NCBI GenBank assembly: GCA_016929495.1
Contig: JAFGIS010000449.1
Location: 1-64,000, forward strand
Direction: 5' to 3'
From: Polyangiaceae bacterium
GTDB lineage: Bacteria > Myxococcota_A > Polyangia > Polyangiales > Polyangiaceae
DNA: 64,000 nucleotides
In this document: piece by piece, positions 10,257-57,953 of the stretch
Layout of the letters: each line of letters opens with the position of its first letter
Numbering within the stretch: position 1 is the stretch's first letter
Translations under genes and position numbers: made by a program
The notes under the pieces: model-generated
What the model saw: only the letters and a program-made list of their open reading frames with translations
Database searches by the model: none
What the model was told of the DNA's origin: nothing

Positions 10257-11228
10257 CTAGAAATCCCACGTATGTGCGGAGTGGAGCAGCTCGGCCACCG
10301 TGCTTCCGGAGATCTGTTGAGCACTGAGCCAACGCACAGCACCCTCTTCGGGCAGCTGCAGACGGTGGGGAGCGGTCGCGATGTCACAAATCTCGTCGCG
10401 ACTGCCCGTCGGCAGCCACAGCTCGGCCAGCGTGGCGTGTGGAAGCTTGCCCAGGGCCAGTATCATCGTGCCCTGGGTACCGTCATGCGACCAGAAGAAG
10501 GTCGGCACATTCGCTTTCCAGCCGGCGATGCAGCCCGCCCAGTCCAGCCAGAAGCACACCGCGGCGCCTCCCGCCAGACCGAGCGGCAGCCGCAGCGACA
10601 GGGGCGTCGAAGCCTCGTCGAGGCCACGACACGAGCGCACGGTCTCGCTCACCAGCGCGACCAGCTGCGCCGGGTTGATGCGATGGTCTTCTCCGAAGAT
10701 CATGCTCCAGAGCTCGTCGACGGGCAGGGTGCGTGTCCACTGCGCGTAGGAACCGAGGGCGTCGTCGAGATCGATCTCCGGCAACGGGGTCTGCGCAAGT
10801 TGGTAGGCGATGTTGGCGTTCGGGTCGGCCACCAACGACAGCACGAGCTGGCTGCAGACCTTCCAGCAAGGCTCGAGAACCAGAGGCATCACCTCGGGCG
10901 CAGCGAGCAGCTCAGCGGGAGCCATCAGCGGCATCGCCACGGTCAGCGGGAAACGACGGCCCGCACGATCCGAGCTCGGACCGAACGCTCCGACCAGCGC
11001 TGGCGTCTTCTTGCCCGGGGCGGCACGGTAGACAAAAGCCTGGACGCCGCCGGCGGTGTAGGCGTCGGCCCAACCCGAGCCGGCCCTGGCCTCGGCCCAT
11101 TCCACGTTGTGAGTGAGGAACGCATCGAAGCTGGTGAATTCCTGGCTGCGATTGCCGATGTTGATGAAGTCGCCGCGCGAGGGGTGCTTGCCAAGCACGC
11201 CCGGTGCACCCAACGAGATGCCGGTCAC
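10257..11228 (-). CDS. tagF: T6SS-associated protein TagF
   Basis: 'GAPGVLGKHPSRGDFIN...' typical TagF N-terminus; GTG start overlaps the tssM stop. Confidence 0.85.
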   Translation of the reverse strand: MTGISLGAPGVLGKHPSRGDFINIGNRSQEFTSFDAFLTHNVEWAEARAGSGWADAYTAGGVQAFVYRAAPGKKTPALVGAFGPSSDRAGRRFPLTVAMPLMAPAELLAAPEVMPLVLEPCWKVCSQLVLSLVADPNANIAYQLAQTPLPEIDLDDALGSYAQWTRTLPVDELWSMIFGEDHRINPAQLVALVSETVRSCRGLDEASTPLSLRLPLGLAGGAAVCFWLDWAGCIAGWKANVPTFFWSHDGTQGTMILALGKLPHATLAELWLPTGSRDEICDIATAPHRLQLPEEGAVRWLSAQQISGSTVAELLHSAHTWDF

Positions 11229-14200: not shown

Positions 14201-14779
14201 CCGGAATCGCCTCACCGTGGCGAGAAAGGTCATCCACTCTTCGCGATCGTCGTCCTCGGTAGCAAGCCGGCCGGCGGTGTCGAGCAGAATCGCGTTCTGC
14301 GAAAACCACCAATCGCAGTTGCGCGTCCCGGCCGTGCCACGCACCTTCGCATCCGATGCGCCTTGGGGCGTGATGAAGCCGAGGCCCGACTTGCTGAGCG
14401 CCGTGGTCTTGCCGGCGGCCGGTGGTCCGATGACCACGTACCACGGCAGTGCGTACAGCGCCGCCTTGCCGCCGCCACCGAGCTTGCTGCGCTTGAGGAT
14501 GTCCAGGGCGGCCTTCATCTGCGCCAGCAGCGCGAGTATCTCCGGACGGCGGTCGGGCCGCACCTGGTTGGCCTGTCTCTCGGCCTGGCGCAGAAGCTCA
14601 CGCTCGAGCGCCGCGGCGCGCAGACGCGCCCTCACGAATCGCACGATGAGTACAGTCGCCACGATCAGGACGATCGCAGCCGTGATCACCCCGGCAATCC
14701 AGAATGGAGCTTTGAGCAGCGCGAACACGGGCCACGTCACGGCGATCAGCAGAGCCCCAACGATGATCATCCACAGCAT
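11225..14779 (-). CDS. tssM: T6SS membrane subunit TssM/IcmF
   Basis: 1184 aa; N-terminal TM helices, Walker A 'GPPAAGKTTAL', 'CDWWFSQNAILLDTAGR', IcmF C-terminal region. Confidence 0.95.
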   Translation of the reverse strand: MLWMIIVGALLIAVTWPVFALLKAPFWIAGVITAAIVLIVATVLIVRFVRARLRAAALERELLRQAERQANQVRPDRRPEILALLAQMKAALDILKRSKLGGGGKAALYALPWYVVIGPPAAGKTTALSKSGLGFITPQGASDAKVRGTAGTRNCDWWFSQNAILLDTAGRLATEDDDREEWMTFLATVRRFRSNRPLDGLVVAVSVEDLLTQSEEQLHELVGQLRARTDELMSRLEMVLPIYVLFTKVDLLGGFVEFFGDLTKQQRAQAWGASFSLDDERLQEPAQLVEAEFDTLVRVLHARMIERLAREPQPEVRARVLQFPLEFTPLREPVTRFIEELCRSNPYSETPFVRGFYFSSGTQTGRSMDRVIGNMARGFNLGMLAVPEGRRPEPQSFFVTELFSKVVFPDRHLAVRSLSRVRRSTRNQFLWGGAAVLAALVLITPAALSYVTNTKLVQATERDVREARGLERSGQAVAAANALDLLLERNVRLEEARNEFSVRALIGPYSAPRLHDSLRGLYLQRLRAMVEGPVQTQLVADVRGIADTVRNNPRNFQTAYQDVKLYVMLTQPVHLQPEYAIPRLTEVWARAFNSQSEADQQRLAAHAKRYIDSFVADKSSWAWKVDAAALSNAQGSLAALDYDELLYATLVEAAEGAPPIRPENIFVGAAAPYWTTRGDVEVPGMYTALGWEKIRKLLDEPDIRFELEPWVLGKAASERQDSRDVAAQRLRELYFKRYTARWSDFLGGLEVTPPENMEGAIEELRVLTESDGPYVRLFRTVAENVRLDIGTVSDLEKLLAKGMAKGQKKLQDKLKRVGLGADAGDAGAPPERAVSSVERHFDPLLRFIGGVGKKADAAPTGLSQYLTHLSTLEGALTQLAESQQASGNEFGAELSRTAVAVQHQLNGMDRRMRMVVEPLLMNPIRGSRAGVVRADLAQLTGDWKSEVWEVYRTKIKPRYPFSDVPAEVTLPEFADFFRPQTGLFWTFFKKAFEARLERSGSSYVPKPSADSMPFRADFLTCLNVAQQITDAVFGNGQEPSVKFAVRVHSVSARISETTLIVDGQAIRYRNEPERWITTTWPGKGDPRGGTLQVKGAGFQDEIPRMGDFGLFRLLADGGVAPTGTMAGGVPVLLAKWALSRGNEPPVSIDFKPAKTVHPFAANFFRRFNCPSEVTVGAAAAARQP

Positions 14780-14788
14780 CGAAAACCC

Positions 14789-15481
14789 TCAATCGAGCGA
14801 TCGGCCCTCGATGTGCTTCGCCCCCATCGCATCGAGGGACTGGTCGACGTTCGCGTTCACCAAGCGCTCGAGTCCCAACACGACCAGGATGGCCAGCACG
14901 AGTGAGCCAGCGACCACTGCGATCAGTGGCCAGTTTTTCGCCCGGCGGGCGGGCAGGCGGTCCGGTGGCTCGGCGCGCGGCCCCAGCTTCGGCCCCGCCG
15001 GAAAAGCCTTCGCGACGTGTTGTCGAGCTGCCTCGGTGAAGCCCGCCAGGGAGCGATGGTCTCCGCTGACGCCGTATGCACCGCGAAAACCAAGCACCAA
15101 GCAGAGATAGTAGATCTCGAGCGCCAGTGAGGCGCCTCCCTGCTGCATGAGGATCCTCATGCGATTGAAGAAGTTCTCGCCCGCGGTGTACTCGCGGTAC
15201 AGCTCCAGCTGCAGCGGGTGCCCCATCCACTCTCCGCGTCCCGGCCAGTTCGATTTGAGCACCTGCTCGTCGACGAACGCCACCAGCGCGTAGCGAGCCT
15301 CGGCCAAGTCGGCGTCAGGCAGCCCCGCCGCTCGTCCGCGACCGACCACGGCATCGAGCGCCGTGAAGATGCGCTGTCGCAGCTCGGCGGGTGACGGCAG
15401 ATTGGCCGTCTGCGGCAACTTGGCAGCCAACACCAACAGTTCGGCACAGCACCAGTAGAGCGATTGGGCCATGGCGCTCAT
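14789..15481 (-). CDS. tssL: T6SS membrane subunit TssL (DotU family), short form with one C-terminal TM
   Basis: 'ARYALVAFVDEQVLKSNWPGRGEWMGHPLQLELYREYTAGENFF'; ATG overlaps the tssK stop. Confidence 0.93.
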   Translation of the reverse strand: MSAMAQSLYWCCAELLVLAAKLPQTANLPSPAELRQRIFTALDAVVGRGRAAGLPDADLAEARYALVAFVDEQVLKSNWPGRGEWMGHPLQLELYREYTAGENFFNRMRILMQQGGASLALEIYYLCLVLGFRGAYGVSGDHRSLAGFTEAARQHVAKAFPAGPKLGPRAEPPDRLPARRAKNWPLIAVVAGSLVLAILVVLGLERLVNANVDQSLDAMGAKHIEGRSLD

Positions 15482-16827
15482 CGCACATGGGTGGACGACA
15501 CCGCGTACAGGTTCAGCGTCGAGCCAGCCCACTCACCCTCCTTGGGCAGATACAACGCCACCGTCGAGGAGCGAGCGACGTCCTCCCAGTAGGGGCCTTC
15601 CTTGTGCACTCGGAAGAAGCAGACGCCCGGCTTGACGGGCAGCGCGGCGGTCGGATGCCATTCGATCGAGAGCCTAATGCCGTGGCGCGCCTGCTTGACC
15701 ACATCGTACACCTGGTTCCAGCTCGCCATCTTGAGCAGCGCCGGAACGCGCTCGCGCACCAGGGCCTCGCTCATGTTCGAGGTCACGGCTATGAAGAGCT
15801 CCTGCCCCAGCAGACTCTTGTCCGTGAGCTTGCCGATGAACATGCCGTCGGGACGGTGCTCGAGCCCGATCTCGACATACGAGCGTTCGATGCCGCCAGG
15901 CAGCAGTCGGAGCACGGTGGCAAACAACGTTTCGAAGAGCTCGCCGAGCTCCAGGAAACTGAACTTCGGCACCGAGGAGGGATCGGCGTCCGGTGCGAAG
16001 CTGCAGAGCTTGCCGATGAGACCGGCGAGAACGACGTACGCTTCCTCGGGGTGCGTGTTCGGCGTGTCCAGAAGATGGCTGAGCTGAGGGATGACACCGT
16101 TGAGCGTATGCAACAGCCAGAACTTGCGCACCTCGGTGGCGTGGAAGTCGACCGCGTCCGACTGGCGCTGGCGACGTTCGCTCGCCAGCTGTGCTTGCCG
16201 CGCGACCACGCTCGCCAGCACGCGTCGCAGCCCATTCTCCAGAAAGGGCGCTGCCCGGAGGTCCAGAACCGGAGGCACGTACGTGTCCTGGATACGGAAC
16301 GTCCCGTTCTCCTGACGCAGGATGATGGCCACGCAAGTGGTGGCAAAACCGTCCCTGCGTTCGTCCCCGAAGAAGATCCGCAGATTCGGTTGTGCCCACT
16401 CGAGGTCCTGCGGTGAGCTGCCCGTGTTCACGTCGACCACCTGGCGGGTCATGCGAGTGTACCTGCGCACCGCCGGTTCTCCCTCGGAGCCGACCGCCGC
16501 AGAACCCTCGAGCTCGAAGGCAAGCCCGAGATAGACCTCGGTGCGGAGCGCGTCTGGAGGCAGCTTGCGCGGAGGCGGCACGGGAACGTCCGTGCCCTCG
16601 CCGCAGGAGACGCTCGTGCCGTCCGGCCAGATCGCGGCGAAGCGCTGAAGCTTGAACTCCCCGGCCGCGAACCCCCGCTCGTCGATCTTCAGCTCGGATA
16701 TCCCCCAGCCGAAGTGCGTGATGGCTCGTATGCGCGCACGCAGCAGCTCTTCGTGGTAGCGATCTTGCTGCTGCATGTGGTGTTGGCTCAGCAGCAGCCC
16801 TTCCATCCAGACCGGCTTCTTGGCCAC
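15478..16827 (-). CDS. tssK: T6SS baseplate subunit TssK
   Basis: 449 aa; 'PVWMEGLLLSQHHMQQQDRYHEELLRARIRA' canonical TssK N-terminus. Confidence 0.95.
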   Translation of the reverse strand: MAKKPVWMEGLLLSQHHMQQQDRYHEELLRARIRAITHFGWGISELKIDERGFAAGEFKLQRFAAIWPDGTSVSCGEGTDVPVPPPRKLPPDALRTEVYLGLAFELEGSAAVGSEGEPAVRRYTRMTRQVVDVNTGSSPQDLEWAQPNLRIFFGDERRDGFATTCVAIILRQENGTFRIQDTYVPPVLDLRAAPFLENGLRRVLASVVARQAQLASERRQRQSDAVDFHATEVRKFWLLHTLNGVIPQLSHLLDTPNTHPEEAYVVLAGLIGKLCSFAPDADPSSVPKFSFLELGELFETLFATVLRLLPGGIERSYVEIGLEHRPDGMFIGKLTDKSLLGQELFIAVTSNMSEALVRERVPALLKMASWNQVYDVVKQARHGIRLSIEWHPTAALPVKPGVCFFRVHKEGPYWEDVARSSTVALYLPKEGEWAGSTLNLYAVSSTHVR

Positions 16828-16830: not shown

Positions 16831-17415
16831 CTAGTCCCCTTCGTCCGCGTTCGTCTGGTTTTCCGTCGGCGCCGATTCGTCCGGCTTCGGCTCCGCAACC
16901 TGCTCCTCGACAGCGCGGCCTTCCCCGTCCTGGATCTGCATCCGGTCCAGGATGACCGGAATCGGCTTCGCGGAGGCACACGGCGGCGTGGTAGGAGGCG
17001 TCGGCAGCTCGTAGGTGACGAACCAGTCGTTGCCCTGCGGTTCTCGAAACAGAGCCACCAGCGCCACGACGTGAGCGTCGCGACTGCGCTTGATCGAGAC
17101 CGTCTCGGTCTTGCCGGGGAAGATCGTGTGTTCGGAGACGCCCTTCAGGTCCGTGGCCAGGATCTCCTTGTCCTTCTGCCACATCTCCTCGAAGGTCGCG
17201 TTTCGAAGTCGGGCGTCGCTCACCAGCTGGTAGACACGCACGATCACAGGACGGCCTTCGCCCTCGGTGCTCGGGTTGACGCGCGCCGTGGCGCTGATGG
17301 AGAGCTCGGTCTGGGGCGGTGGGCAACGCTTGGGGGGCGACTTGGCCGGCGGAGGCGACGCGGACGAGCACGCCGCCAGCGCCCCGACCAGCGCGGTCAG
17401 CAACACAGTTCTCAT
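16831..17415 (-). CDS. tssJ: T6SS outer-membrane lipoprotein TssJ
   Basis: lipobox 'LVGALAACSS'; 'LSISATARVNPSTEGEGRPVIVRVYQL'; next to tssK. Confidence 0.92.
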   Translation of the reverse strand: MRTVLLTALVGALAACSSASPPPAKSPPKRCPPPQTELSISATARVNPSTEGEGRPVIVRVYQLVSDARLRNATFEEMWQKDKEILATDLKGVSEHTIFPGKTETVSIKRSRDAHVVALVALFREPQGNDWFVTYELPTPPTTPPCASAKPIPVILDRMQIQDGEGRAVEEQVAEPKPDESAPTENQTNADEGD

Positions 17416-18424: not shown

Positions 18425-21400
18425 CTACGGGTTTGCCGTGGCACCCAGTCTACGGCGGCATGCGGCGGCCATCTCTTTGCTGAAGTGCTGGCGGCCCCAA
18501 TCGAAGGTGGGCGGTACGCACTTGTCCGATTCGTCGCGGGTCGCGATCAGTTCCTTGAGTGTATCGCGCGCCTGCCACACGACGTCCTTCGGCACCTGAA
18601 CCGCGAAGCGCGAAACGTCGGGCGTCTCGTCGCCGCTGATGTCGAGATTCAGCGTTCGCAGCTGAACGACGCTGGTCGCTGCCGCACGAGCCACGAGGCT
18701 CAAACGGGTGCCGGGGGCCACGTCGAGATCGGAGGTCAGCTGGGGCGAACGGATCTGGACACCCGTGAACTTGAGTCTCGTCAGGTTGTTCAGTATCAGC
18801 GCGATGGCCTGGATGGTCGGGACGTACTGAGCGGTTTCGTCCGGTATCCACTGGGCGTCGACCAGATCCCAGAATCCGACGTCGTTGCCGGCCCGCTCCA
18901 GGCGAGCCACCGTGGCGAACGGACCCATGTTGTACGAGGCGAACATGAGGTCCCAAACGCCGTCACGGTTGTAGTTGATGAGCTTGTCGCGCAGATCGCG
19001 CAGATACCCGACCGCCGCCTCGGTCGACTTGGGCGGGCTGCGTCGCTCGTCGACGACACCCTCCTTGACGCGCAGATGATAGGCGCGTGCCGTGGCCGGC
19101 ATCAACTGCCACAATCCAGCAGCACCCACCGGCGACTTGGCCGTGGGCTCACATCCGCTTTCCGCGAACACCAGCGCCAACAGGTCCGATGGCAGCCCGT
19201 GCCGAATCAGAGTGGCTTCGATCTGATCTCGGTACGCTCCGCAGCGAAAGAGCATCGCTTGCAGTAGTTCACGGCCGACCGCGCCTTCGGTGTAGTACTC
19301 GAACCAGCGCCGAACGCTCGGGTCGTTCTGGATCGGTATCGCCGGCATCTTGAGGCCAACCATCCAGCTCGCCCGCATCTGTTCCCCGGAGGGCCGCCGC
19401 CTCGTGATTCGTACCCCGTCGGCGGGACCCAGCGCGTTCTCACGAGCTTGTGCCAGCTGCCGACAGGTCGCGGACGACCCCTCGCACCGACCCTGCGACG
19501 CACGCGCGGCCAGCGCTGCTTCTTCGTCCACCAGAGCGCGCAGCTCCGCGGACTCCTTGCCACGGCCATGAACCTGCGCGAGCACGGCCTTGAAGGTCTC
19601 GTCCTCGGTGAGCAAACGTGACCGCGGAAGCTCCCCCGAGGTCGAAGGCGCCGTGCCCGCTGCGGTCGGGGCCGTAATCGCCGCGACGGGTTTCCGCTCC
19701 GATTCGTCGGCGCGCCGCGTCAAAACGATGATCAGCGTGGCCAAGCCGCCGAGCACCACGACGAGTACGGCACCGGCGATGACGCCGATCCGCCACGCCG
19801 GAGTCTCCTGCTGTCGATTCTGCAGCAAGGCCGGCCGTCTTGGGTCTGCGCGCTGCCCACGTCGACCTCGGCCCAACCCACCCAGCAGCTCTTGCATCCG
19901 GCGCACTCCTGTTGCGCCAAGGCTTGCAGCTGGCAACGACGGAGCTCGTGGGCGAGGCGGCTCCGGGGTCGGTGGCAGAGGCGGAAGGCCCGAGGGAGAG
20001 CGATCGAGAAGAGGAGGCGGCTTCGACCCAGACGCGTCCGGCGAGCTGAACGACGCGGAACGACGCTTGAGGCCGAGCAGCGAGTTCCGAGGATCCCGCG
20101 CATCAGCCGCGGGCGGCGCGGATGCTGCCGCAGGAGCCGCTCCGCGTTGGCCCTTCCGGCCTCGCAACCCGAGCATCGTGCGCACCTGCAGGTTGAGCGC
20201 ATTGAACGGCGAAGAGCGCGGCCCGGCACCAGCTGCGTCTGCCCCTGGACCGTTTGAGCCGATGGGCTGTTGCGCTGGTAGACCCTGGCCAGGCACCGGC
20301 TGCCAGCCGCCAGAGACAAGAGGAGGCGCGGAAGGATGATCTGGAACGCCGAAACCCGGCGGGGCCGGGACCGACGCCTGTCCCGGTGGTGCCGAGACAA
20401 GCAGTGGATCCGCGCCCAACGCACCGGAATGCAGGCCTGCCGGCTGAGCCGGAGACTGTCGTGGCAGACCCGCGCCCGGCGCCTGAAACTCCGGCAGCTT
20501 CGGCGGGCCGTCGTCCGGGCCCCGAATGACGGAAGCATCCAGCAGTTGTGGTGGCTTCGCTGACTCGGGACTTGGCTCGATCCTTCTGCCGATGCCTGTG
20601 ACCATCGGCGGTGGCGCGGGAGCCGCACCAGCGGCTGGTGGAGCGGGATTGGCCGAGACGATGGCCGGACCACGCGGGGCCGTTGGAACGTAGAGCGGAA
20701 GCGGGGCTGCGTTGGCAGCCGGGATGACCGGGCTACGCCGTGCGGCTGCAGGGCTCATCAGTGGGGGCGCAGTGCTCTGCTGCTGGGCTGGCGCAGCGCC
20801 GACGGGTCCCGGCGCAGGACGCTGCTGGGCTGGCGCGGAGCCTACCGGTGGTGCGGGCGAAAGACTGCGCAGGGGCGCAGGGGTGACGGCGGCTGGGCTC
20901 TGGTCGGCGCGCCCTCCTGGGATGACGGGCGCGGGCGCAAGGCTACGTTGCGCTGGTGCCGGGCCGACGGGTGCGGGCGCAGGGCTCTGCTGGGCTGGTG
21001 CAGCGCTGACCCGAATGGGCACAGGGCCAACCGAGGCGGCCACCGGGCCAAGCAGTGCACCCGCAATTGGAGGAGCAGAGGAGCTGTGAAGGGTCGGCTG
21101 CAGATCCGAGGCCACGGCCTTCGCAGGTTCCGAGGAAGCCTTGGACGCGGAGCCCATCCCTGCAACCATCATCTGCTCCTGAGGCGTCAGCGTGCATCTG
21201 GCCTGGTCCGAGAGCTGAAACAACGTCTCCAGAGCCGAGCGCAGGTCAGCCGCCGCTGCGCCGCCGGCGTCGACCCGACGCAGTAGATGGTCCAGGTGCA
21301 CGGCGATGCCGCCAAACCCAGCTGAGGAAAGCCGCGGCTGAAGCTGCGTGCAGCGGACCCGAAGCGCGGAGGTGTTCGGTTGGGCCGGCCGCGTCCCCTG

Positions 21401-21499
21401 CGCGAACAGCTGACGCCAGCCCGCGAGACAGGCTCGGAGCTCCACCAGCACCTGGACCCTGTCCGGCCCAGGAGTTCTCCCAGCTTCAGGCACACTCAT
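18425..21499 (-). CDS. membrane-anchored lytic transglycosylase (SLT domain) with long Ala/Pro-rich cytoplasmic N-terminus, T6SS-associated
   Basis: TM 'IGVIAGAVLVVVLGGLATLIIVL'; SLT motifs 'LRHGLPSDLLALVFAESGCEPTAKSPVGAAGLWQLMPATARAYHL' and 'FASYNMGP'; 1024 aa. Confidence 0.88.
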   Translation of the reverse strand: MSVPEAGRTPGPDRVQVLVELRACLAGWRQLFAQGTRPAQPNTSALRVRCTQLQPRLSSAGFGGIAVHLDHLLRRVDAGGAAAADLRSALETLFQLSDQARCTLTPQEQMMVAGMGSASKASSEPAKAVASDLQPTLHSSSAPPIAGALLGPVAASVGPVPIRVSAAPAQQSPAPAPVGPAPAQRSLAPAPVIPGGRADQSPAAVTPAPLRSLSPAPPVGSAPAQQRPAPGPVGAAPAQQQSTAPPLMSPAAARRSPVIPAANAAPLPLYVPTAPRGPAIVSANPAPPAAGAAPAPPPMVTGIGRRIEPSPESAKPPQLLDASVIRGPDDGPPKLPEFQAPGAGLPRQSPAQPAGLHSGALGADPLLVSAPPGQASVPAPPGFGVPDHPSAPPLVSGGWQPVPGQGLPAQQPIGSNGPGADAAGAGPRSSPFNALNLQVRTMLGLRGRKGQRGAAPAAASAPPAADARDPRNSLLGLKRRSASFSSPDASGSKPPPLLDRSPSGLPPLPPTPEPPRPRAPSLPAASLGATGVRRMQELLGGLGRGRRGQRADPRRPALLQNRQQETPAWRIGVIAGAVLVVVLGGLATLIIVLTRRADESERKPVAAITAPTAAGTAPSTSGELPRSRLLTEDETFKAVLAQVHGRGKESAELRALVDEEAALAARASQGRCEGSSATCRQLAQARENALGPADGVRITRRRPSGEQMRASWMVGLKMPAIPIQNDPSVRRWFEYYTEGAVGRELLQAMLFRCGAYRDQIEATLIRHGLPSDLLALVFAESGCEPTAKSPVGAAGLWQLMPATARAYHLRVKEGVVDERRSPPKSTEAAVGYLRDLRDKLINYNRDGVWDLMFASYNMGPFATVARLERAGNDVGFWDLVDAQWIPDETAQYVPTIQAIALILNNLTRLKFTGVQIRSPQLTSDLDVAPGTRLSLVARAAATSVVQLRTLNLDISGDETPDVSRFAVQVPKDVVWQARDTLKELIATRDESDKCVPPTFDWGRQHFSKEMAAACRRRLGATANP

Positions 21500-31384: not shown

Positions 31385-32878
31385 TCAATCGGAAGCCAAC
31401 CACGGACCTGATAGGGTCGTCGGCGGATCGTGGATCGACTGGAATCGCAGCAGTCGGACCCTGTCCTGGCCGCGTACGGCCTGCAAGACCATCAGGCCTC
31501 GCGTCGAGAGCTGCTCGGCGTTGGCAGACGACAACCATGCTTCGGCGCAGGGAGCCTGCACGGTCTCCCCGTCCTCGTTTCGATACACGTGGACGGGCAG
31601 GCCAGCGATATCGAGCTCATCCCCAGGTGAGAGGTTCCATCCCGATCGAATGAACGACATACCCAGCAGCGCCGCGCAAGCCAACGCCGAGTTGCCCCAA
31701 AGGCACTGTGAATAGTCGGACGGGACTGCCAGCTCCTCGAACTCGAACGGCTCGATGGGATCGGTCTTCGGCCCGTACGGCAGCCGCAGCAGGAATCCAG
31801 GGACCGCGACGCCCAGGTGCGATGCCTCCGGACGTGATCGGAGCTCGGCCCAGGCGCGCGATGCCCCGTCCCCACTTGCGTTCGCAACAGCAGACCATCG
31901 TGCGCCGGTGACGAACGCCGCCCCGGCGCGCTCGCTCGCACTCGCCAAGCGGCCGAGAAGCTCGACGTCCTCATCCGACATCTCGAACTCGTAGTCGCCC
32001 ACGATGATCCCCCACGGAGCATCCCCGAGTTGCGGAACGGCGGCGCCGGTGAGCAGCGCCTCCAGAGCAGCACCGTCCGAGCTGCCGGTCCATTGTGCAG
32101 CGAGCTCGGACTTCGACAGGTCCAGTATGAAAAGCTGGATGTCCTCCGTCTCGCACAGCTGGTTGCACGTCCAGACCAGGCCACGCCAGGTTGCCTCCAA
32201 CGCCGTGAAGTGCGCGTCGTGCAATACCGCCCGCATCAGCGCGGAAATGGCCTCATCGACGGCACGCTGTGCTTGTGCGAGCTCGGCCGACGGGGGCGCG
32301 GCGACCTGCGCCGGCACCAACGGTCCTACGAACGCATCGACCATGCGCGCTGCGTTGCTCTGTGGCTTCGCCGGCTCGGTCGACGGCCGCCCGAGCAGCC
32401 GCGTCAACGCGTCGCGCTCGGACTCGTCCGGCTCGCGAGCTGGCGCCTCGACCGGCGCTGCGGCGGTAGCATCCGCGGCAGCGCGACCGCGGATCCTCGA
32501 CAATGCTTCCGCAGCTCGCGCTGGATCCTTCAGCTCTCGCCGCAAGCTGCGGAAGGAAGCGAACAGATCCAGCCGCTCGTAGAGCTCGTTCGGATGGAAG
32601 TCCTCCATCTGCTCGAAGCGCATGCTCAGGGTTCGGCCCTGCCCCAACTCGAGCTCCAGTTGCGGAGCGACTGCCCGGAGCGCGGCATCGATATCCGCCG
32701 GGTCGACGCGCCGAGGTCGAACGCGGACGATTGTGTCACCCGTCCGACCGGTGCGCCCGGCGAAGTCGCCGAGTATCAGCACTCGCAGCGGCTGGTCGGG
32801 GTCTTTCCGGGCGGCGTGGCTCCGCTTGGCAAACGTGAAGTTCATCTCGATGCCGGTGCGCGACGGTTTCGTGGGCAT
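31385..32878 (-). CDS. TssB-TssC-like fusion: sheath paralogue with N-terminal TssB-like and C-terminal TssC-like regions
   Basis: N-term 'PLRVLILGDFAGRTGR...MRFEQMEDFHPNELYERLDLFASFRSLRREL' aligns to TssB; C-term 'LHDAHFTALEATWRGLVWTCNQLCETEDIQLFILDLSK...LGVAVPGFLLRLPYGPKTDPIEPFEFEE' aligns to TssC of this locus. Confidence 0.85.
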   Translation of the reverse strand: MPTKPSRTGIEMNFTFAKRSHAARKDPDQPLRVLILGDFAGRTGRTGDTIVRVRPRRVDPADIDAALRAVAPQLELELGQGRTLSMRFEQMEDFHPNELYERLDLFASFRSLRRELKDPARAAEALSRIRGRAAADATAAAPVEAPAREPDESERDALTRLLGRPSTEPAKPQSNAARMVDAFVGPLVPAQVAAPPSAELAQAQRAVDEAISALMRAVLHDAHFTALEATWRGLVWTCNQLCETEDIQLFILDLSKSELAAQWTGSSDGAALEALLTGAAVPQLGDAPWGIIVGDYEFEMSDEDVELLGRLASASERAGAAFVTGARWSAVANASGDGASRAWAELRSRPEASHLGVAVPGFLLRLPYGPKTDPIEPFEFEELAVPSDYSQCLWGNSALACAALLGMSFIRSGWNLSPGDELDIAGLPVHVYRNEDGETVQAPCAEAWLSSANAEQLSTRGLMVLQAVRGQDRVRLLRFQSIHDPPTTLSGPWLASD

Positions 32879-33076: not shown

Positions 33077-34762
33077 ATGACCCAAGGTGGTGCGCGCACC
33101 CGGCTCAGCCCCGCCGATTCGCGGGTGCTCCGCTCACATGTGCCAAGAGCCCAGGTTCGACCTCTCTATTGGTGCTGTGCCGAAGCCCTGAACCTGGCTG
33201 TCAGCCTGCCGCAGCTATCCAACCTGCCAGCCCCTGCCGAGCTGCGTCAGCGCGTCGTGACCGTGCTCGACAACATGGTCGGCAGGGGCAGAGCGGCCGG
33301 CATCTCCGACGCCGATCTGGCCGAGGCGCGGTACGCGCTGGTGGCTTTCATCGACGAACAAGTGCTCAAGTCCAACTGGCCAGGACGCGCCGAGTGGATG
33401 GGTCAACCGCTGCAACTGGACCTCTACCGTGAGTACACGGCAGGAGAGAACTTCTTCAATCGAATGAGGAACCTTCTCCAACAGGGAGGCTGTACGGCGG
33501 CTCTCGAAGTGTACTACCTCTGCTTGGTGCTCGGGTTCCGAGGCGCATACGGAGTCAGTGGAGACAACCGCGCGCTTGCCAGCTTCCGCGATGCAGCCCG
33601 GCAGCGTGTCGTCGAGGCGTGGCCCGCGGGAACGAAGCTCGGACCACGCGCCGAACCTCCCGACCGCTTGGGGAAGACCCGGAGCAGTCATGCTCCACTG
33701 ATAGCCGTGGTCGTGGGCACCGTGCTCGTCGTTCTGTTCGTCGTGATCGGACTCGAGCGTCTGCTGAAGGCGAACATCGACGAGTCGCTCGACATCATGG
33801 CCGACAAGGCCGTGGCGCCCGCTTCGGCTTCCTCGGGTTCGGCGTCGAGTTTGCCGATGGCCTCGGCTCGGTCGCTGGGGTCGGTCCGTACCGCAACGGC
33901 TCCTGCTGCAGGGGCCGTCATCCGCGCGAGCGGCCCCCCCTCGGAGGTCCCGGCGCCCGGGAAGTCGACTCGTCCGCCGGCCGACGTGGGGCCCTCCTCC
34001 CAGCGTGCGGCGCTCGTAGGATCGGCACCGCCAGGCTCGCTCAAGAGCTACCCGCAGAATGTCGCGAACAGACCGGTACCCAGGATCGGCAATGAGCCGT
34101 GGTTGATTTCCGAACCCTGGCGCGCACAGCACGAGCGCCAACTGGCGGCCCCGAATCGCAGCCGAGCCAAGCTCGTGTTCCTGGGCGACTCGATCACGGC
34201 GGGCTGGGTTTCGGTGTCTGCGTACCGTGACCATTTCCGCAAGTACTCCCCGCTGAACCTCGGAATAGCCGGCGACCACACGCAGAATCTGTTGTGGCGC
34301 ATCGAACAAGGGACTCTCGATTCCCTCCATCCCGAGCTCGTCGTCATTCTCATCGGCGTCAACAACCTCGGGGGCGGTTTCACACCCGAGCAGACTGCGG
34401 GAGGTGTCGGTGCCGTCGTGCGCGCGGTCCGGAAGCGTCTTGCCGACACGCCCGTGCTTCTGCTGGCGATCTTGCCCGCCGGGCACAGCCCAACGGATCG
34501 GCTTCGCCAGAAGGTGGTCGACACGAATCGCCTCATCAAGAGCCTGGCGGAACCAGGACGCGTGACCTTCGCGGACATAGGCTCCGTTCTGCTCGAGCCC
34601 GACAGAACCATCACCAAGGCGACGTTGCGGGACTATCTGCACCCGACCGCCGACGGCTACGAACGCCTGAGCACAGCGCTCGAGCCGATTGTGCAGCGAC
34701 TCATGGGCGGCGGCGCTGGGTCGTCCGCGCCAGCGGAGCCGACGGTGAGCCCGACGCGGTAG
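33077..34762 (+). CDS. TssL paralogue (DotU domain + TM) fused to C-terminal periplasmic SGNH/GDSL (PAF-acetylhydrolase-like) hydrolase
   Basis: N-term nearly superimposable on TssL of this locus ('ARYALVAFIDEQVLKSNWPGRAEWMGQPLQLDLYREYTAGENFFNRMR'); TM 'LIAVVVGTVLVVLFVVIGLERLL'; SGNH blocks 'VFLGDSITAGW', 'NLGIAGDHTQNLLWR', 'ILIGVNNLGGG', 'DYLHPTADGYERL'. Confidence 0.9.
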   Translation: MTQGGARTRLSPADSRVLRSHVPRAQVRPLYWCCAEALNLAVSLPQLSNLPAPAELRQRVVTVLDNMVGRGRAAGISDADLAEARYALVAFIDEQVLKSNWPGRAEWMGQPLQLDLYREYTAGENFFNRMRNLLQQGGCTAALEVYYLCLVLGFRGAYGVSGDNRALASFRDAARQRVVEAWPAGTKLGPRAEPPDRLGKTRSSHAPLIAVVVGTVLVVLFVVIGLERLLKANIDESLDIMADKAVAPASASSGSASSLPMASARSLGSVRTATAPAAGAVIRASGPPSEVPAPGKSTRPPADVGPSSQRAALVGSAPPGSLKSYPQNVANRPVPRIGNEPWLISEPWRAQHERQLAAPNRSRAKLVFLGDSITAGWVSVSAYRDHFRKYSPLNLGIAGDHTQNLLWRIEQGTLDSLHPELVVILIGVNNLGGGFTPEQTAGGVGAVVRAVRKRLADTPVLLLAILPAGHSPTDRLRQKVVDTNRLIKSLAEPGRVTFADIGSVLLEPDRTITKATLRDYLHPTADGYERLSTALEPIVQRLMGGGAGSSAPAEPTVSPTR

Positions 34763-34913
34763 CGTCGGAGACCAGAAGGGCTCGGGGTCGCAGGCTCTCG
34801 CGGTCCGACGAGGGTCGGGGCCGCCGGCCAATTGGCCCGCGCATCTGGACTTGTGTTCAGGTGCGGGTTCTGCTACGCGCAGTCATGCACACAGCGCTGC
34901 GGAGGCATCGCTA

Positions 34914-37040
34914 GTGGCCAAGGCTCCATTCTTTGCCGATCTTCTGGATGCCGAGCTCGGCTGGGACCGCAGCCGGCCCAATCGTGCGATGCGGCGAGCA
35001 TGGGGACTGCGCCGCGAGCCGGCCCGGACCTTCGAGGTCAGGCCCGCCAACAAGGGCGCCAGCAAGGGTCGGCAGCCCACGACCGCGCGATCGGGCTCGA
35101 AGCCACCCAAGGCAGCGAACCACAGAACGTCCGCGCATCCGGAGCGTGTCAAGGGGCCATCCCCCGCAAAGGAGGAGCCGGGCCAGTCGCGCATCCCGTC
35201 AGCCAAGCCCGATCTCACGCCGCAAGGGGCGTCTCTCGTGGCGAGCCTGCCGCCTGCTCCAGCTCTGTGCACGCCGGAGCCTGTTTTCGAGTGGTCCGCG
35301 TCACCGCTCGACGTCGGCGTCCTCGACGCGCAAGGGTCTGTTCGCGGTGCCGCACTCGCCCTGAGCGCAGCCGAGCTCCGATCGATGACGCGATTCGACG
35401 AGCTGTTGTGCCTGCCGACCGTCAGCGGTGTGGTGCCCTACGACTACCAGATCGATACCGTACGGCGGGTGCTGCGCTCTCTGGGGGGTCGCGCGCTCTT
35501 GGCTGACGAGGTCGGGCTCGGCAAGACCGTCGAGGCACTGCTGGTCTTGGCTGAGTATCGTCTTCGCCGCCAGGTGCGAAAGACCCTGATTCTGGTGCCG
35601 CCCGCGCTCATCGAGCACTGGCAGAGCGAACTCTCTTCCAAGGCCGGCATCGTCGCCCGCACCTCCTCGGGGCCCGAACTCGCGCGGGATGCCGATGCGT
35701 TCTGGGGTGACGACGGAGTGGTGATCGCGTCGCTCGCCCTGGCGAGAGGGTCCGCCCATCTGCCCAGGGTGACCGCCACCGAGTGGGATCTGGTGATCGT
35801 GGACGAGGCACATCACCTGAAGAATCGTGCCACCGCCGGCTATCGGCTGGTCAATGGTCTGAGCACGCGCTTTCTGCTCCTGCTCACGGCGACGCCCATC
35901 GAAACCGAGCTCGAAGAGATCTATAGCCTGGTCACGTTGCTTCGCCCCGGGCAGTTCGCGACGCCAGGCGCATTCCGCAAGCAGTTCGTCAACGGCGCTG
36001 ACCCGACTTCGCCTCGGAACCGACAGCAGCTCAAGAGTCTGCTGTCCGAGGTCATGGTCCGCAACACGCGCGCAGGCTCCGGGCTTTCGCTGCCGCCTCG
36101 GTTCGTGACCACCGTCACGCTCGATCCCACACCCGGAGAGGCCGCTTTCTACCAGGCCGTGGTGGCGCTGCTTCGTGACTTCGCCAGCCAACAGGGCTCG
36201 CGGCTGGTCGCGTCCACGCTGTTGCTGCAGGCCGGGTCCAGTTTGCAGGCCGCGCTCGGCACGCTCGACACCGTGCTCAGCGGCGAGAAGCACAGCCCGG
36301 AGTTCCGTGCGGCCTGCGCCCGTGTGGCAGAGTTCGGGGCTGGCGAGTGCCAGCGGCTGCGCTCGCCGCCTCGTCCGGGCTCCTCCCCGGTCGCCGGAGG
36401 GCTCGGCAAGGTCAGCGCGCTGCTCGAGATCTTGAAAGCGCACCAGCAGCAAGCCCTGGTGTTCACCCGCTACCGGAGGAGCCTACAGTGGCTGGGCAAC
36501 AAGCTCAGCGCGGCCGGAGTTCATCACGTGATGTTCCACGGTGGGCTCGGCGCCACTGCGAAACAGTCGGCGCTCGAGCAATTCCGCGCTGGCGCGCCCG
36601 TGCTGCTGGCCACCGAAGTGGGGGGCGAAGGGCAGAACCTCCAGTTCTGTTCGTTGCTCGTGAACTTCGACCTGCCGTGGAATCCGATGCTGATCGAGCA
36701 GAGGATTGGCCGCTTGCACCGCATGGGGCAGGAGCACGAGGTTCGCGTGTATAACCTCGCAGCTCGCGGTACGGCCGAGGAGCGCGTGCTCGACGTGCTC
36801 GACCGGCGGTTGCACCTGTTCGAGCTCGTGGTGGGGGAGATGGACATGGTGCTGGGCAACCTGGCCGACGAACGCGACCTCGAGGACCGCATCCTCGACC
36901 TGTATGCTCGGAGCGCCAGCGACTGCGAGCTCGATTCTGGGTTCGACCGTATCGCGGAGGAGCTCGCCCGCGCGAGGCAACTCTACGACCGCACGCGAGC
37001 GTTCGATGCCGCCCTGTTCCGGGAGGACTATGCCTCTTGA
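34914..37040 (+). CDS. SNF2/RapA-like superfamily 2 helicase
   Basis: 'VPYDYQIDTVRRVLRSLGGRALLADEVGLGKTVEALLVLAEYRLRRQVRKTLILVPPALIEHW', 'DEAHHLKNR', 'IEQRIGRLHRMGQEHEVRVYNL'; GTG start. Confidence 0.92.
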   Translation: MAKAPFFADLLDAELGWDRSRPNRAMRRAWGLRREPARTFEVRPANKGASKGRQPTTARSGSKPPKAANHRTSAHPERVKGPSPAKEEPGQSRIPSAKPDLTPQGASLVASLPPAPALCTPEPVFEWSASPLDVGVLDAQGSVRGAALALSAAELRSMTRFDELLCLPTVSGVVPYDYQIDTVRRVLRSLGGRALLADEVGLGKTVEALLVLAEYRLRRQVRKTLILVPPALIEHWQSELSSKAGIVARTSSGPELARDADAFWGDDGVVIASLALARGSAHLPRVTATEWDLVIVDEAHHLKNRATAGYRLVNGLSTRFLLLLTATPIETELEEIYSLVTLLRPGQFATPGAFRKQFVNGADPTSPRNRQQLKSLLSEVMVRNTRAGSGLSLPPRFVTTVTLDPTPGEAAFYQAVVALLRDFASQQGSRLVASTLLLQAGSSLQAALGTLDTVLSGEKHSPEFRAACARVAEFGAGECQRLRSPPRPGSSPVAGGLGKVSALLEILKAHQQQALVFTRYRRSLQWLGNKLSAAGVHHVMFHGGLGATAKQSALEQFRAGAPVLLATEVGGEGQNLQFCSLLVNFDLPWNPMLIEQRIGRLHRMGQEHEVRVYNLAARGTAEERVLDVLDRRLHLFELVVGEMDMVLGNLADERDLEDRILDLYARSASDCELDSGFDRIAEELARARQLYDRTRAFDAALFREDYAS

Positions 37041-38148
37041 GCTGGGGGCCGCCTCAGGTACCCGGGAGCTGCCGGTGCATCCGACCAGCGATCCGCTCGG
37101 GTTCACGCTCGCCATGCTGACCGCGCGCGGCGCGCTGGTCGAGCCGGGCACCCCTACCGCCATGGCGGTGCTTCCACCCGAGCTCGCTTCCGACCTCGGG
37201 TTGCCGGAAGACTGCACGCTGGGCCTCGATGGGTCCGAGACCGTCGTACCCTGCGGGCTGGGTTCGTCGCTGCTCGAACGGCTCGTGGAGCAGGCGTGCG
37301 CGGGGCTGGCCGTGGCTCACACGGCCCTCGAACTCGAGCCCCCTCGTCCAGGGCGCGCGCTCTCGCTCGGAGAGGCGTTCGTGGTCCGCAATGGCGTGAC
37401 CGACCTCGTCGAGTGTCTGCCCGGCAGCGCGGACTACCTCCTGTTGGCGGCGAGCTGGGTCGCCGAGGCCGATGATCAATTCGAGGGGCTGGCTTTCGGG
37501 GCCGTCTGCGCAGTGGACGGCGGTCAGCCCGACCCCGAGCTCGAAGGGGCTCTGGTATCCGCGCTGCGGACAGCCGGCGGGCCCGGGCGCGCCGCAGCCG
37601 TGGCGGCGGGCGCCTCCACGGGCGAAGCCGTCAGTGCTCGCACCTTCGAGCGCCTGTGCGGTCTGGTCGCCGGGCGCGCCCGGGGGTCTGTGGAGCCGCT
37701 CGGCACCGGTGTGGCGCGACGCCACGCACGCGAGCACGCGCGGATCGCCGAGTACTTCGAGGCCATGATCGCCGAGCTCGCGGGACGCAGGCGCAGGCTC
37801 GACCCCGAGACCCTCGCATCGCGCATGATGGCCGTCGTTGCCGATCGCGACGGCAAGCTCCGCGATCTGCGCCAACGCTTTGCGCTCAAGGTTCGTTTGA
37901 GCCCGGTGGCTCTTGCGAAGATCAGGGTGCCCTGTATCACCGCCAAGGTGCGCGTGCGTCGCCGACAGCTCGAACGCGTGGTCGTGCTCCGCCTTCCCGC
38001 GCTCGCGCACCATTTCGACCGGCTCGCCTGCGACGCGTGCGAGGGTTTCACCGAGCGCCCGGCGGTCTGCGACCAGCGCGTGCACCTGCTCTGTGAGCGA
38101 TGTGCTCCTGAAGCGCGGGGGCGGCTGTGTTGCCCTGCTTGCGGATAG
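37030..38148 (+). CDS. helicase-linked protein with C-terminal zinc-ribbon (CxxC...CxxC...CxxC)
   Basis: start overlaps the helicase stop by 11 nt; C-terminus 'CDACEGFTERPAVCDQRVHLLCERCAPEARGRLCCPACG'. Confidence 0.8.
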   Translation: MPLELGAASGTRELPVHPTSDPLGFTLAMLTARGALVEPGTPTAMAVLPPELASDLGLPEDCTLGLDGSETVVPCGLGSSLLERLVEQACAGLAVAHTALELEPPRPGRALSLGEAFVVRNGVTDLVECLPGSADYLLLAASWVAEADDQFEGLAFGAVCAVDGGQPDPELEGALVSALRTAGGPGRAAAVAAGASTGEAVSARTFERLCGLVAGRARGSVEPLGTGVARRHAREHARIAEYFEAMIAELAGRRRRLDPETLASRMMAVVADRDGKLRDLRQRFALKVRLSPVALAKIRVPCITAKVRVRRRQLERVVVLRLPALAHHFDRLACDACEGFTERPAVCDQRVHLLCERCAPEARGRLCCPACG

Positions 38149-39015
38149 CTCGATTCGAAGAGGGTGCGCCAGGAGCACGCTCCAGACCCAGAATCGGCGC
38201 ACCAGCCGCGATTTTGTCGGGTGAAGCCGCAGCCGCAGCCGCGCGCAACGCTCCTGGACCGCAGCCCACGCGTCGACGAGCCGCGAGCGATCGTGTGAAA
38301 AAACGAGCAGATCGTCCGAATAGCGCACGAAGCTGCCCAGACCCAGGTGACTGGCGAGCAGATGATCCACAGGCGTCAGCATCGCGTTGGCCCACACCTG
38401 CGAGGTCAGATTCCCGATCGGAAGGCCATGCGGCCTCGTCAGCGGCTCGAACAGAGTATCGCCCGGAAAATGAAAGGCCACGCGCTCCACTCGCGTCTCG
38501 GCAGCGAGAACGCGCCGCACCAGCCACGCGAGCTCACCGGGACAGCGCGGCAACAACAGCTCTAGCAACCGTTCGTGGTCGATGCTCGGGAAGAACTTCC
38601 TGATATCGAGCCTGAGCAGCCATTCGTGCCTGAGAAAGAGCTCTACGGCCCGTCTGAGCGCTCGGTGGCTGCCCTTGCCCACGCGGCACGCGTAGGACTG
38701 CGGAACGAACCAGCGCTCGAGCGCCGGCAGCATCGCCTCGATCAAGGCATGCTGCACCACCCGGTCTCGAAAAGGCAGCGCGGTGATCGGCCTCGGCTTG
38801 GGCTCGTGGATCTGAAAGCAGCGCGCTCGGCCCGGCCAGTAGCTGCGGCGCGCCAGCGCCTCGCTCAGCGCTGCCAACGGTACGGCCGGATCGAGCATGA
38901 AACGCGCCACCTCGGGCCGTCGGCGCTTGCCCCGCGCCGCGCGCTCGGCCATGCCGAAGAGGCTCGGGAGCCCTGCGGGGAGCAAGTCGAGAGCCGGCGC
39001 GCGCGAGAGGCTCAA
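38149..39015 (-). CDS. reverse transcriptase (RNA-directed DNA polymerase), DGR-type motifs; 3' end apparently truncated (frame stays open to 37054)
   Basis: 'GKRRRPEVARFML...EPKPRPITALPFRDRVVQHALIEAMLPALERWFVPQSYACRVGKGSHRAL...LLRLDIRKFFPSIDHERL...GLPIGNLTSQVWANAML...FVRYSDDLLVFSHD...LRLHPTKSRLV'; start uncertain (TTG 39015 or ATG 38952). Confidence 0.85.
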
Positions 39016-39065
39016 GGCGGGTCGCGTCTTGTCCAGATGCCCAACGTTCCGGGCACTAGATCGGC

Positions 39066-40040
39066 TCACGCCGCCCGCAACAGCGAACTGCGGTTGAACA
39101 AGACCCGAAGAGGATCCTTTTCGCGAGATGCCACCACCCACGCGCCCAGCCCGGCGCGGAACAAGATGTCCATACGTGGCTTCTTCCCTGCAAGAAGCTC
39201 GCGGATCACTAGCCGGAAGGCGTGGAACCAGGCGCGGTCCGAAGGATACAGAGGTGGGAAGCTCATGCCCAGGGTGGCCGCATCCAAGGCCCGCTCCAGC
39301 CAGACCCGCTCGCCGCGTTCGAGGCCCCACCGGGTCGCTCCTGCCGCGAAACCAAAGCAGAGGTCCGCATTGCCGTCTGCGAGGATATCTCTGTAGGCAA
39401 CCTCGAGCACAGCGCTCGCCTGCTCGGGGTCTGCCTGCGTGACCAAGTCGAGCTCTGCCTGCCGGATGGCAGTATCCTCGGGGTCGAGCCTTCTTGCTCG
39501 TTGGATCGCGTCCCAGCACGCTCTGACATTCCCGTTGGTACGCTGGACCGATGCCAGGCTACTCCAGAATCTAGGATCTCCAGGAAATGCGCTGAGCAGA
39601 ATACCGAGCTCTCGAGCTTGCTCTGGAGCCTTGCCCCGCTCCATTGCCGACGCCGTCTTGGGTGTGTGTTTCAGGACTCGTTGATACGACCGGAGAAAGG
39701 AGCCGAACTTGCCGTCCAGGCGAGCACGGATCGCGCGAGCCTCTGTTTCGGGCAATGGCTCGCTGGCTTCGAGCACGCGACCCCATGCCCACTCGAGCAC
39801 CGCCGACGGATCCAAGGCGTCGATCAGGCACCCACAGACTTCGACCGCGGAACGAAGACGGTCCTCGGGCGTTGGGGCCTCCGTCGCCTCCAGCGCTCGG
39901 CGTTCCGCACGAGCGGCCGCGTGGAAGAGCACGCTGGCCTCGAACAGGGCTTCGGTTCCTCCTTCGGCAAGGCGCGCCGCCGCCGCCACCTTGAAGTGCC
40001 CGCTTTCGACCAGGATGAGGCGGCGGGTATCCGGGATCAT
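39066..40040 (-). CDS. TPR-like/alpha-solenoid hypothetical protein
   Basis: 324 aa; 'DPRFWSSLASVQRTNGNVRACWDAIQRARRLDPEDTAIRQAEL' TPR-like helix pairs. Confidence 0.7.
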   Translation of the reverse strand: MIPDTRRLILVESGHFKVAAAARLAEGGTEALFEASVLFHAAARAERRALEATEAPTPEDRLRSAVEVCGCLIDALDPSAVLEWAWGRVLEASEPLPETEARAIRARLDGKFGSFLRSYQRVLKHTPKTASAMERGKAPEQARELGILLSAFPGDPRFWSSLASVQRTNGNVRACWDAIQRARRLDPEDTAIRQAELDLVTQADPEQASAVLEVAYRDILADGNADLCFGFAAGATRWGLERGERVWLERALDAATLGMSFPPLYPSDRAWFHAFRLVIRELLAGKKPRMDILFRAGLGAWVVASREKDPLRVLFNRSSLLRAA

Positions 40041-53128: not shown

Positions 53129-55009
53129 GTGGCCCGCTTTATCGATCAGCTGAAGAGAACCCACGATTGTGGTGCGTTGCGCACGTCGGACATCGGAAGC
53201 GAAGTGGTGCTCTTTGGGTGGGTCGCCAACCGTCGCGACCACGGCTCGCTGGTTTTCGTCGACTTGCGTGATCGCGAGGGCATCACGCAGATCGTCTTCG
53301 ACCCGGATATCTCACCTGAGGCGCATCACATAGCGGAAGCACTGCGCAACGAGTGGGTCATCGGGATCCGGGGACGCGTCCGTTCGCGCGGTCAGCAGTT
53401 CAGCAAGAAGGAACAGAAGCTCGTCAGCGCAGCTAACCCCAATTTGTCCACCGGCGAGATCGAGGTTGAGGTCTGTGAGGCGACGGTCTTCAACCGAAGC
53501 GAGACGCCGCCCTTCGAGTTGACCGATCAGACGGACACGCGTGAGGAAATCCGCCTCATGTACCGCTATCTCGATCTGAGGCGAGGTCCACTTCAGCGAG
53601 CACTCAAGATGCGACATGCGATCAACCAGGTGGCGCGCAACACGCTGGCGGCGCACGGATGCCTCGAGCTCGAAACGCCATTTCTGGTGAAGTACACACC
53701 CGGCGGCGCACGCAACTTCCTCGTACCGTCGCGGATGCATGCCGGAAAGGTGTACGCACTGGCGGAGAGCCCGCAGCTGTTCAAACAGCTCTTCATGGTG
53801 GCCGGGTATGATAGGTACTTCCAGATCGTCCGGTGCTTCCGCGACGAGGACCTGAGGCTCGACCGGCAGCCCGAGTTCACCCAAATCGACATCGAGATGA
53901 GCTTCGTGAACGAGGACGACGTCTTCGGCCTGGTCGAGCAGCTCGTCGTGGCCGTCTGGAAAGCCGCGGCCGGCGTCGACCTCACGGAGACGTACCCTGG
54001 CGGGCATTTTCCGCGCATGCCTTTCGACGAGGCCATGCGCGACTACGGCAACGACAAACCCGACGTGCGCTTCGGCATGAAGCACACGGACTTGACCGAG
54101 CTGATCATCGAGCACGAGGGCGGCGGTGTACCGTTCTTCGCGGCCATCGCCGACAAGTACGCGCGCGGCGTGCTGCGCCGCGACTTGCCTGGGGAAATCG
54201 TCAAAGCACTGGTCGTGCCGGCCAGCGCGAACCTCTCGCGAGCAGACCAGGACAAGCTGGAACAGGTCGCCAAGAGCATGGGCGCCGCGGGTTTGGCGCG
54301 CGCACGCGTCGGCGCCGAAGGGGCGTGGACGCAATCGCCCCTCGCGAAGGTTATCACGCCCGAGCTACGCTTGGCGATCAACCAGGCCACCGCGGCAAAG
54401 CCAGGGGACCTCATCATCTTCCAGGTCGGGCGAACTGCTCTGGTCCACACGGTGCTCGCCAACCTGCGCGTCTACCTCGGCAAGAAGCTCGGGCATATCC
54501 CCGAAGTGGGCCATGGCGGACAATGGCAGTTCCTGTGGGTCGTCAACCCGCCCCTGTTCGAGTACGACGATGAACACAAGCGTTGGGTGGCGGCCCATCA
54601 TGCGTTCACCCGTCCCCACGACGACCACGTCGACCTGATCCAGACGGATCCCGGAAAGGTACTCTGCTACCGATACGACCTGGTTCTCAATGGCTTCGAG
54701 ATCGGTGGGGGCTCCATCCGTCTGCACGACCCGGTGGTGCAGCAGCGCGTTTTCGCTGCACTCGGCATCGACGAGGCGACGGCCCAAGACAAGTTCGGGT
54801 TCCTCCTCTCCGCGCTCCGCTACGGAGCGCCGCCACACGGAGGCATTGCTCTCGGTATGGACCGGATTGCGATGTTGCTGGCTGGAACGGACAGTATTCG
54901 GGACGTCATCGCCTATCCCAAGACGCAGAAAGGCACAGACGTCATGAGCGACGCCCCGAGCAGCGTCGGGCCCGAACAGCTCGCCGAACTGCACATCCGC
55001 CCGGTCTAG
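53129..55009 (+). CDS. aspS: aspartyl-tRNA synthetase (AspRS, bacterial type with GAD insert)
   Basis: 'LRTSDIGSEVVLFGWVANRRDHGSLVFVDLRDREGITQIVFDP', 'GGARNFLVPSRMHAGKVYALAESPQLFKQLFMVAGYDRYFQIVRCFRDEDLRLDRQPEFTQIDIEMSF'; GTG start. Confidence 0.96.
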   Translation: MARFIDQLKRTHDCGALRTSDIGSEVVLFGWVANRRDHGSLVFVDLRDREGITQIVFDPDISPEAHHIAEALRNEWVIGIRGRVRSRGQQFSKKEQKLVSAANPNLSTGEIEVEVCEATVFNRSETPPFELTDQTDTREEIRLMYRYLDLRRGPLQRALKMRHAINQVARNTLAAHGCLELETPFLVKYTPGGARNFLVPSRMHAGKVYALAESPQLFKQLFMVAGYDRYFQIVRCFRDEDLRLDRQPEFTQIDIEMSFVNEDDVFGLVEQLVVAVWKAAAGVDLTETYPGGHFPRMPFDEAMRDYGNDKPDVRFGMKHTDLTELIIEHEGGGVPFFAAIADKYARGVLRRDLPGEIVKALVVPASANLSRADQDKLEQVAKSMGAAGLARARVGAEGAWTQSPLAKVITPELRLAINQATAAKPGDLIIFQVGRTALVHTVLANLRVYLGKKLGHIPEVGHGGQWQFLWVVNPPLFEYDDEHKRWVAAHHAFTRPHDDHVDLIQTDPGKVLCYRYDLVLNGFEIGGGSIRLHDPVVQQRVFAALGIDEATAQDKFGFLLSALRYGAPPHGGIALGMDRIAMLLAGTDSIRDVIAYPKTQKGTDVMSDAPSSVGPEQLAELHIRPV

Positions 55010-55103
55010 AGATGGAAGCCTGCTCGCGGTTCGCCCGGAAAGACCCGTTCGCCGGCGTGTTCTCGCGGCAGCCGCTTGACGTTGGTTTGCCTGTACCGGC
55101 ACG

Positions 55104-56513: not shown

Positions 56514-56534
56514 GGGCGGAAAACGACGGCGCCG

Positions 56535-57878: not shown

Positions 57879-57953
57879 CCTCTCCAGGCTTGCAGCGACG
57901 GTCGGTGGCCTTGGGTTGTCAGCAAAGTAGGTTCCATTCACACGCGTTCGCTG

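Follow-up and report, generated by a model that had tools for sequence, protein, structure and literature searches.

The window, by which we mean the whole 64,000-nucleotide stretch that was analyzed, contains one T6SS cluster. A cluster scan places a T6SS FHA protein on the minus strand from position 8861, and the same strand carries TssM (11225-14779), the canonical TssL that we call TssL1 (14789-15532, identified by Pfam), TssK (15478-16827) and TssJ (16831-17415). Hcp starts at 17776 on the plus strand and is followed by a minus-strand gene (18425-21499) coding for a membrane-anchored SLT lytic transglycosylase (PF01464, E=2.4e-19), a candidate partner enzyme for the protein described below that relatives retain in their own T6SS clusters. 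This transglycosylase has 1024 aa, among them a TM segment and a long N-terminal part rich in Pro and Ala. Profile scans further identify TssA, TssB, TssC, TssE, TssF, TssG and TssH on the plus strand between 21811 and 31291. The entire genome has one TssM and two DotU genes, both of the latter within the window, and this TssM is presumably shared by the two TssLs. The count rules out a second T6SS that has a TssM to itself.

The second DotU gene, TssL2-SGNH, occupies 33077-34762 on the plus strand and is divergent from a TssB-TssC-like fusion gene (31388-32845, minus strand). It is one open frame of 561 codons that runs from ATG to TAG with zero N, and in which Pfam finds both DotU and Lipase_GDSL_2. 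Residues 30-226 (33164-33754), a span that includes the TM helix, match DotU (PF09850) with E=8.9e-45 and 153 bits against a cut-off of 27, and the NCBIfam DotU/TssL profile TIGR03349 is matched with 141 bits against a cut-off of 89.95. Hydropathy analysis shows a single strong TM helix, C-terminal to the DotU domain, at residues 208-226 (33698-33754; hydropathy 3.2), which falls within a helix at 206-245 in the structural model. This is followed at residues 245-345 (33809-34111) by a S/A/P-rich linker that is predicted to be disordered, as 81% of residues 245-322 are S, A, P, G, T or V, and the full-length model has a pLDDT <50 over most of the linker and no secondary structure elements in it. 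Note that the full-length AlphaFold model is of low confidence (pLDDT 59, pTM 0.37) and was used for domain layout only. The remainder is a PAF-AH-Ib-like SGNH hydrolase domain at residues 346-545 (34112-34711), where residues 368-530 cover the whole Lipase_GDSL_2 profile (PF13472, E=3.1e-28). Two significant domains sharing one frame is far beyond what chance would give. The original prediction of a single ORF coding for DotU, a TM helix, a Ser/Ala/Pro-rich linker and an SGNH hydrolase thus holds for the frame, the Pfam and NCBIfam matches and the hydropathy profile. No OmpA/Pal-like peptidoglycan-binding domain is present among the Pfam matches of TssL2, where the extension is instead the SGNH domain.

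Because the source genome is a draft (9.56 Mb in 675 contigs, with completeness estimated at ~91% and contamination at ~7%), and because the fusion is known from a single example with no second genome showing it, the join itself has to be weighed. An assembly or sequencing error that fused a second tssL to a neighboring SGNH gene, which the original prediction had named among the findings that would overturn it, was looked for in the sequence, where the frame is open with no N and third-position GC stays between 0.68 and 0.83 throughout the ORF and is unbroken at the join. Codon-position GC likewise gives coding character in the same frame across the whole ORF, which has no ambiguous bases. 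The linker is also typical of periplasmic tethers, and the stretch between the DotU and SGNH halves has neither a further signal sequence nor a lipobox, so that the SGNH half has no export signal of its own, whereas its homologues carry one. A frameshift or assembly join is therefore unlikely, and we regard an artefact as very improbable despite the fragmented state of the draft.

TssL1 and TssL2 share 72% identity over 218 codons, with a dN of 0.20, a dS of 0.97 and a dN/dS of ~0.2. In the tree they are sisters, with the TssLs of the nearest genera outside (support 99/98), which indicates a duplication that is specific to this lineage. The homology to TssL1 extends through the TM helix and the native C-terminal tail, and the linker begins where TssL1 ends. 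The best explanation for these observations is that a duplication of the cluster's own tssL, followed by joining to an SGNH module, produced TssL2-SGNH. The low dN/dS further indicates that both copies were kept functional since the duplication. This bears on the reading that TssL2-SGNH works outside of the T6SS, with its DotU-TM part serving as a mere membrane anchor or being a decaying duplicate. A canonical TssL1 in the usual operon would be compatible with that reading, as would the presence in relatives of other membrane anchors that bear the same enzyme. However, the DotU part is under purifying selection and the DotU Pfam score of TssL2 is intact and equal to that of TssL1, and we consider a role outside the T6SS improbable. 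By its domain, topology and context TssL2-SGNH is a TssL, with an orientation expected by analogy to other members of the family. The cluster in which it lies includes TssM and TssJ, and a second lineage-specific TssL beside a canonical one, with a single TssM, points to TssL2 being an added subunit.

TssL is a C-tail-anchored protein with an N-in/C-out topology, and its C-terminus was placed in the periplasm by experiment in E. coli (PMC3426401). By this topology the SGNH domain of TssL2 is predicted to be periplasmic, a location that is well supported by analogy and that agrees with the N-in/C-out periplasmic enzyme originally proposed, given that TssL2 has one TM helix. TssL2 shares with canonical short TssLs, such as TssL1 of the same cluster and TssL of E. 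coli Sci-1, a DotU domain and a single C-terminal TM helix, but TssL1 stops ~25 residues past the TM helix while TssL2 goes on for ~335 residues. In this respect it is built like the evolved or specialised TssLs, for example ImpK of Agrobacterium, which also have a DotU domain, a TM helix, an extra periplasmic C-terminal domain and a T6SS context (PMC3426401, PMC8253398), with many T6SSs having a peptidoglycan-binding domain fused to the TssL C-terminus (PMC8253398). In those proteins the extension is OmpA/Pal-like, whereas in TssL2 it is an SGNH hydrolase, with a canonical TssL also encoded in the cluster. Since the defining peptidoglycan-binding domain is absent, TssL2-SGNH falls outside of the described specialised TssLs despite the similar build.

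The architecture appears to be rare. A survey of 379 Myxococcota genomes gave 96 DotU matches, and an SGNH-size extension was found in 0 of the 95 others. Specifically, nine other DotU frames of >420 aa and two shorter ones that were inspected have tails of 4-48 aa after DotU, and all other frames lack the length for an SGNH domain. Co-occurrence of DotU with Lipase_GDSL_2, which had been suggested as a check, is thus confined to this one protein in the survey, and the possibility that it represents a widespread TssL type is rejected within Myxococcota. The survey covered this phylum, and a convergent case in Proteobacteria is possible. No further DotU fusion came out of SGNH searches in the genomes of the family (108) and of the order (184), and in a pattern scan over 85,462 species genomes, with a reach limited to close relatives, the two halves turned up only separately. 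The literature searched, subscription papers and preprints aside, has evolved TssLs with peptidoglycan-binding domains but gave no TssL with an enzyme extension. The earlier statement that no TssL like this has been described is borne out to that extent.

In regards to the enzyme, the catalytic blocks GDS (370), GIAGD (396), GVNN (427) and DYLH (519) are all present as originally predicted, and the catalytic residues S372, G396, N429, D519 and H522 are all kept when aligned to PAF-AH Ib. In this alignment the codon of the predicted nucleophile Ser372 in GDS is 34190-34192, and the codons for Asp519-Tyr-Leu-His522, which provide the catalytic D and H, are 34631-34642 and correspond to the DYLH of PAF-AH Ib (both on the plus strand). 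The mammalian PAF-acetylhydrolase Ib subunits are the closest solved relatives by sequence (1es9, E=6.5e-33). Foldseek with a model of the SGNH domain also has 1es9 on top (E=9e-15, TM 0.74-0.80), with sialate O-acetylesterases and acetylxylan esterases ranking next; this AlphaFold model (pTM 0.80, pLDDT 77) was built on a shallow four-sequence alignment. The SGNH part is thus PAF-AH-Ib-like by both sequence and fold and belongs to a clade of small-acyl esterases. Positions L48, T103 and L194 of PAF-AH Ib, which we take to shape its small-acyl pocket, align with I373, V428 and L521 of TssL2, and overall the majority of the positions in that pocket align. The aligned catalytic and pocket residues favor a small-acyl, probably acetyl, esterase rather than a long-chain lipase. 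The PAF-AH Ib catalytic subunits (1es9, 1wab) accordingly have the same fold and catalytic residues as TssL2 and share most of its pocket, but they are free cytosolic eukaryotic proteins, whereas in TssL2 a membrane protein carries the SGNH domain, which is predicted to be periplasmic. Finally, the SGNH domain has a dN/dS of ~0.3 against its relatives, which together with the kept catalytic residues suggests an enzyme under selection.

Close SGNH homologues, with 44-61% identity, occur among the 108 family genomes in G079 (two), G100, G102, G104, G105 and G121; the close relatives used are Polyangiaceae MAGs. Four of these proteins (L042, L060, L046 and L047) have a lipoprotein-like start as judged by eye, and three (L043, which is the same as L033, L044 and L045) consist of a ~110-aa N-terminal domain, a TM helix, a proline-rich linker and SGNH. 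The N-terminal domain of the latter is weakly FHA-like (YscD-cpl, E=0.02, with no significant Pfam FHA match), and its three best PDB profile matches are mycobacterial FhaA/TB39.8 (E=0.02-0.1). With these values (YscD-cpl E=0.02, FhaA E=0.02) a firm FHA domain label is weakly supported. These three proteins have an SGNH domain that is 56-61% identical to that of TssL2, and they share with TssL2 a conserved lead-in, PQNVANRxVPRxG, and a tether made of a TM helix plus linker, with one of them located beside tssH. They differ by having another cytoplasmic domain and no DotU, and their usual gene partner codes for a Ser/Thr kinase. Since every close SGNH homologue has an N-terminal TM helix or a lipoprotein-like start, all of them appear to have an architecture that puts the enzyme outside the cytoplasm. 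The SGNH tree does not discriminate between a lipoprotein-like and an FHA-like-TM homologue as the donor.

The linkage of these homologues to T6SS genes varies. A Ser/Thr kinase gene in G102 is followed after 19 bp, on the same strand, by the FHA-like-TM-SGNH gene (57049-58452), the end of which lies 34 bp from that of tssH (54342-57014). The locus L071 (G102:C13, contig positions 57049-59887) spans this SGNH/kinase tandem directly beside tssH, and convergent SGNH/kinase gene pairs occur in G100 and G105. The G100 homologue is on a T6SS contig, ~14.5 kb past the final conserved gene of the cluster. The contigs of the G105 homologue and of L042 in G079 gave no T6SS gene, which indicates that the SGNH module is not strictly T6SS-bound.

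Assembly of TssJLM is known to need local cell-wall degradation (PMC8253398). Taken together with the TssL topology and the SLT transglycosylase in the cluster, this is most simply read as TssL2 bringing an acetyl-esterase to the assembly site, close to that transglycosylase. We therefore favor, at a probability of roughly 0.4, that TssL2 joins TssJLM and that its tethered acetyl-esterase acts on the cell's own envelope, most likely on peptidoglycan, at the site of assembly. As in other TssLs, the DotU domain would lie in the cytoplasm with the TM helix across the inner membrane, and an intact PAF-AH-Ib-like esterase on a long flexible periplasmic tether would replace the peptidoglycan-binding tail. 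The captured SGNH module may already have been exported or membrane-tethered, as it appears to be in relatives, once beside tssH. TssL2 would presumably enter the TssJLM complex together with TssL1, and the esterase would strip acetyl or similarly small acyl groups from envelope glycans of the producing cell. O-acetylation of MurNAc blocks lytic transglycosylases, which would give a logic to the pairing of an esterase with a transglycosylase. Deacylation could thus assist the lytic transglycosylase of the cluster, or it could help the complex to pass through the cell wall and to be anchored. TagX and the housekeeping transglycosylase recruited by TssM, both referred to in PMC8253398, are likewise enzymes for T6SS passage through the cell wall, the role that we infer for TssL2; these cut peptidoglycan as separate proteins, whereas TssL2 is a predicted esterase that is part of TssL itself.

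The main alternative to peptidoglycan is another acetylated envelope glycan. The same architecture and placement could serve a different substrate, such as acetylated LPS/O-antigen, exopolysaccharide or a short-acyl phospholipid. The fold neighborhood of PAF-AH Ib, sialate esterases and acetylxylan esterases is not peptidoglycan-specific, Ape-type peptidoglycan esterases are not among the best sequence or fold matches, the best relatives being PAF-AH Ib, and there are lipoprotein-like homologues without a T6SS on the contig. Peptidoglycan would also have to be O-acetylated to serve as the substrate, and of the genes for such a pathway the genome gave one MBOAT acyltransferase gene, without a PatB-like neighbor. 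On the other hand, the TssL tether would bring the enzyme to the side of the cell wall that faces the inner membrane, and the cluster already encodes a peptidoglycan lyase, so we consider a different substrate somewhat unlikely. A further reading is that the SGNH domain binds or anchors to cell-wall glycan in place of OmpA/Pal, with catalysis being secondary. The domain does sit where specialised TssLs carry their peptidoglycan-binding domain (PMC8253398), and no OmpA/Pal-type anchor was seen among the cluster proteins scanned. However, all of the catalytic residues are kept under a dN/dS that is well below one against relatives, and such an anchoring role is rather improbable.

Lipases and esterases occur among T6SS effectors, and the original prediction had also offered a built-in effector, that is, an esterase released into target cells or one that protects the producer. 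This part of the prediction is unsupported, as the enzyme would be tethered via TssL in the producer's own inner membrane, has no link to Hcp, VgrG or PAAR, and has no paired immunity-like gene in view, making it extremely improbable. Envelope remodelling by a T6SS-tethered esterase is the best reading of the sequence.

Known C-terminal extensions of TssL bind peptidoglycan, and a catalytic extension, if true, would let the base of the T6SS edit the envelope, which bears on how the complex gets through the cell wall and remains anchored in it. The case also illustrates how a conserved core subunit can gain a function by duplication and domain fusion, with its original copy retaining the old role. 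More tentatively, and with some doubt, a T6SS membrane complex into which a periplasmic de-O-acetylase is covalently built may represent a catalytic class of evolved TssL. This could be part of a wider Polyangiaceae theme, where either TssL or a kinase-linked FHA-like membrane protein keeps this esterase tethered close to the T6SS and so couples envelope editing to assembly or to phospho-signalling.

Several other features of the window were also observed. The TssB-TssC-like fusion gene next to TssL2-SGNH codes for a 486-aa protein that has PF05591 and PF05943 in one chain and is without the VipB_2 C-terminal domain, with normal TssB and TssC encoded as well. Homologues that match most of this protein are found in four other family genomes (G081, G015, G079 and G104), and those of G081 and G015 sit on a T6SS contig. 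Four genes at 2675-3244 (minus), 3342-4286 (plus), 4294-5292 (plus) and 8159-8824 (minus) have no significant Pfam match and are kept beside the T6SS in G100, G102, G104 and G015, making them candidates for accessory T6SS proteins. Finally, at the edge of the cluster an 821-aa frame (37054-39519, minus) has a reverse transcriptase domain (PF00078, E=2.6e-19) and adjoins a SNF2-type helicase gene at 34851-37040.
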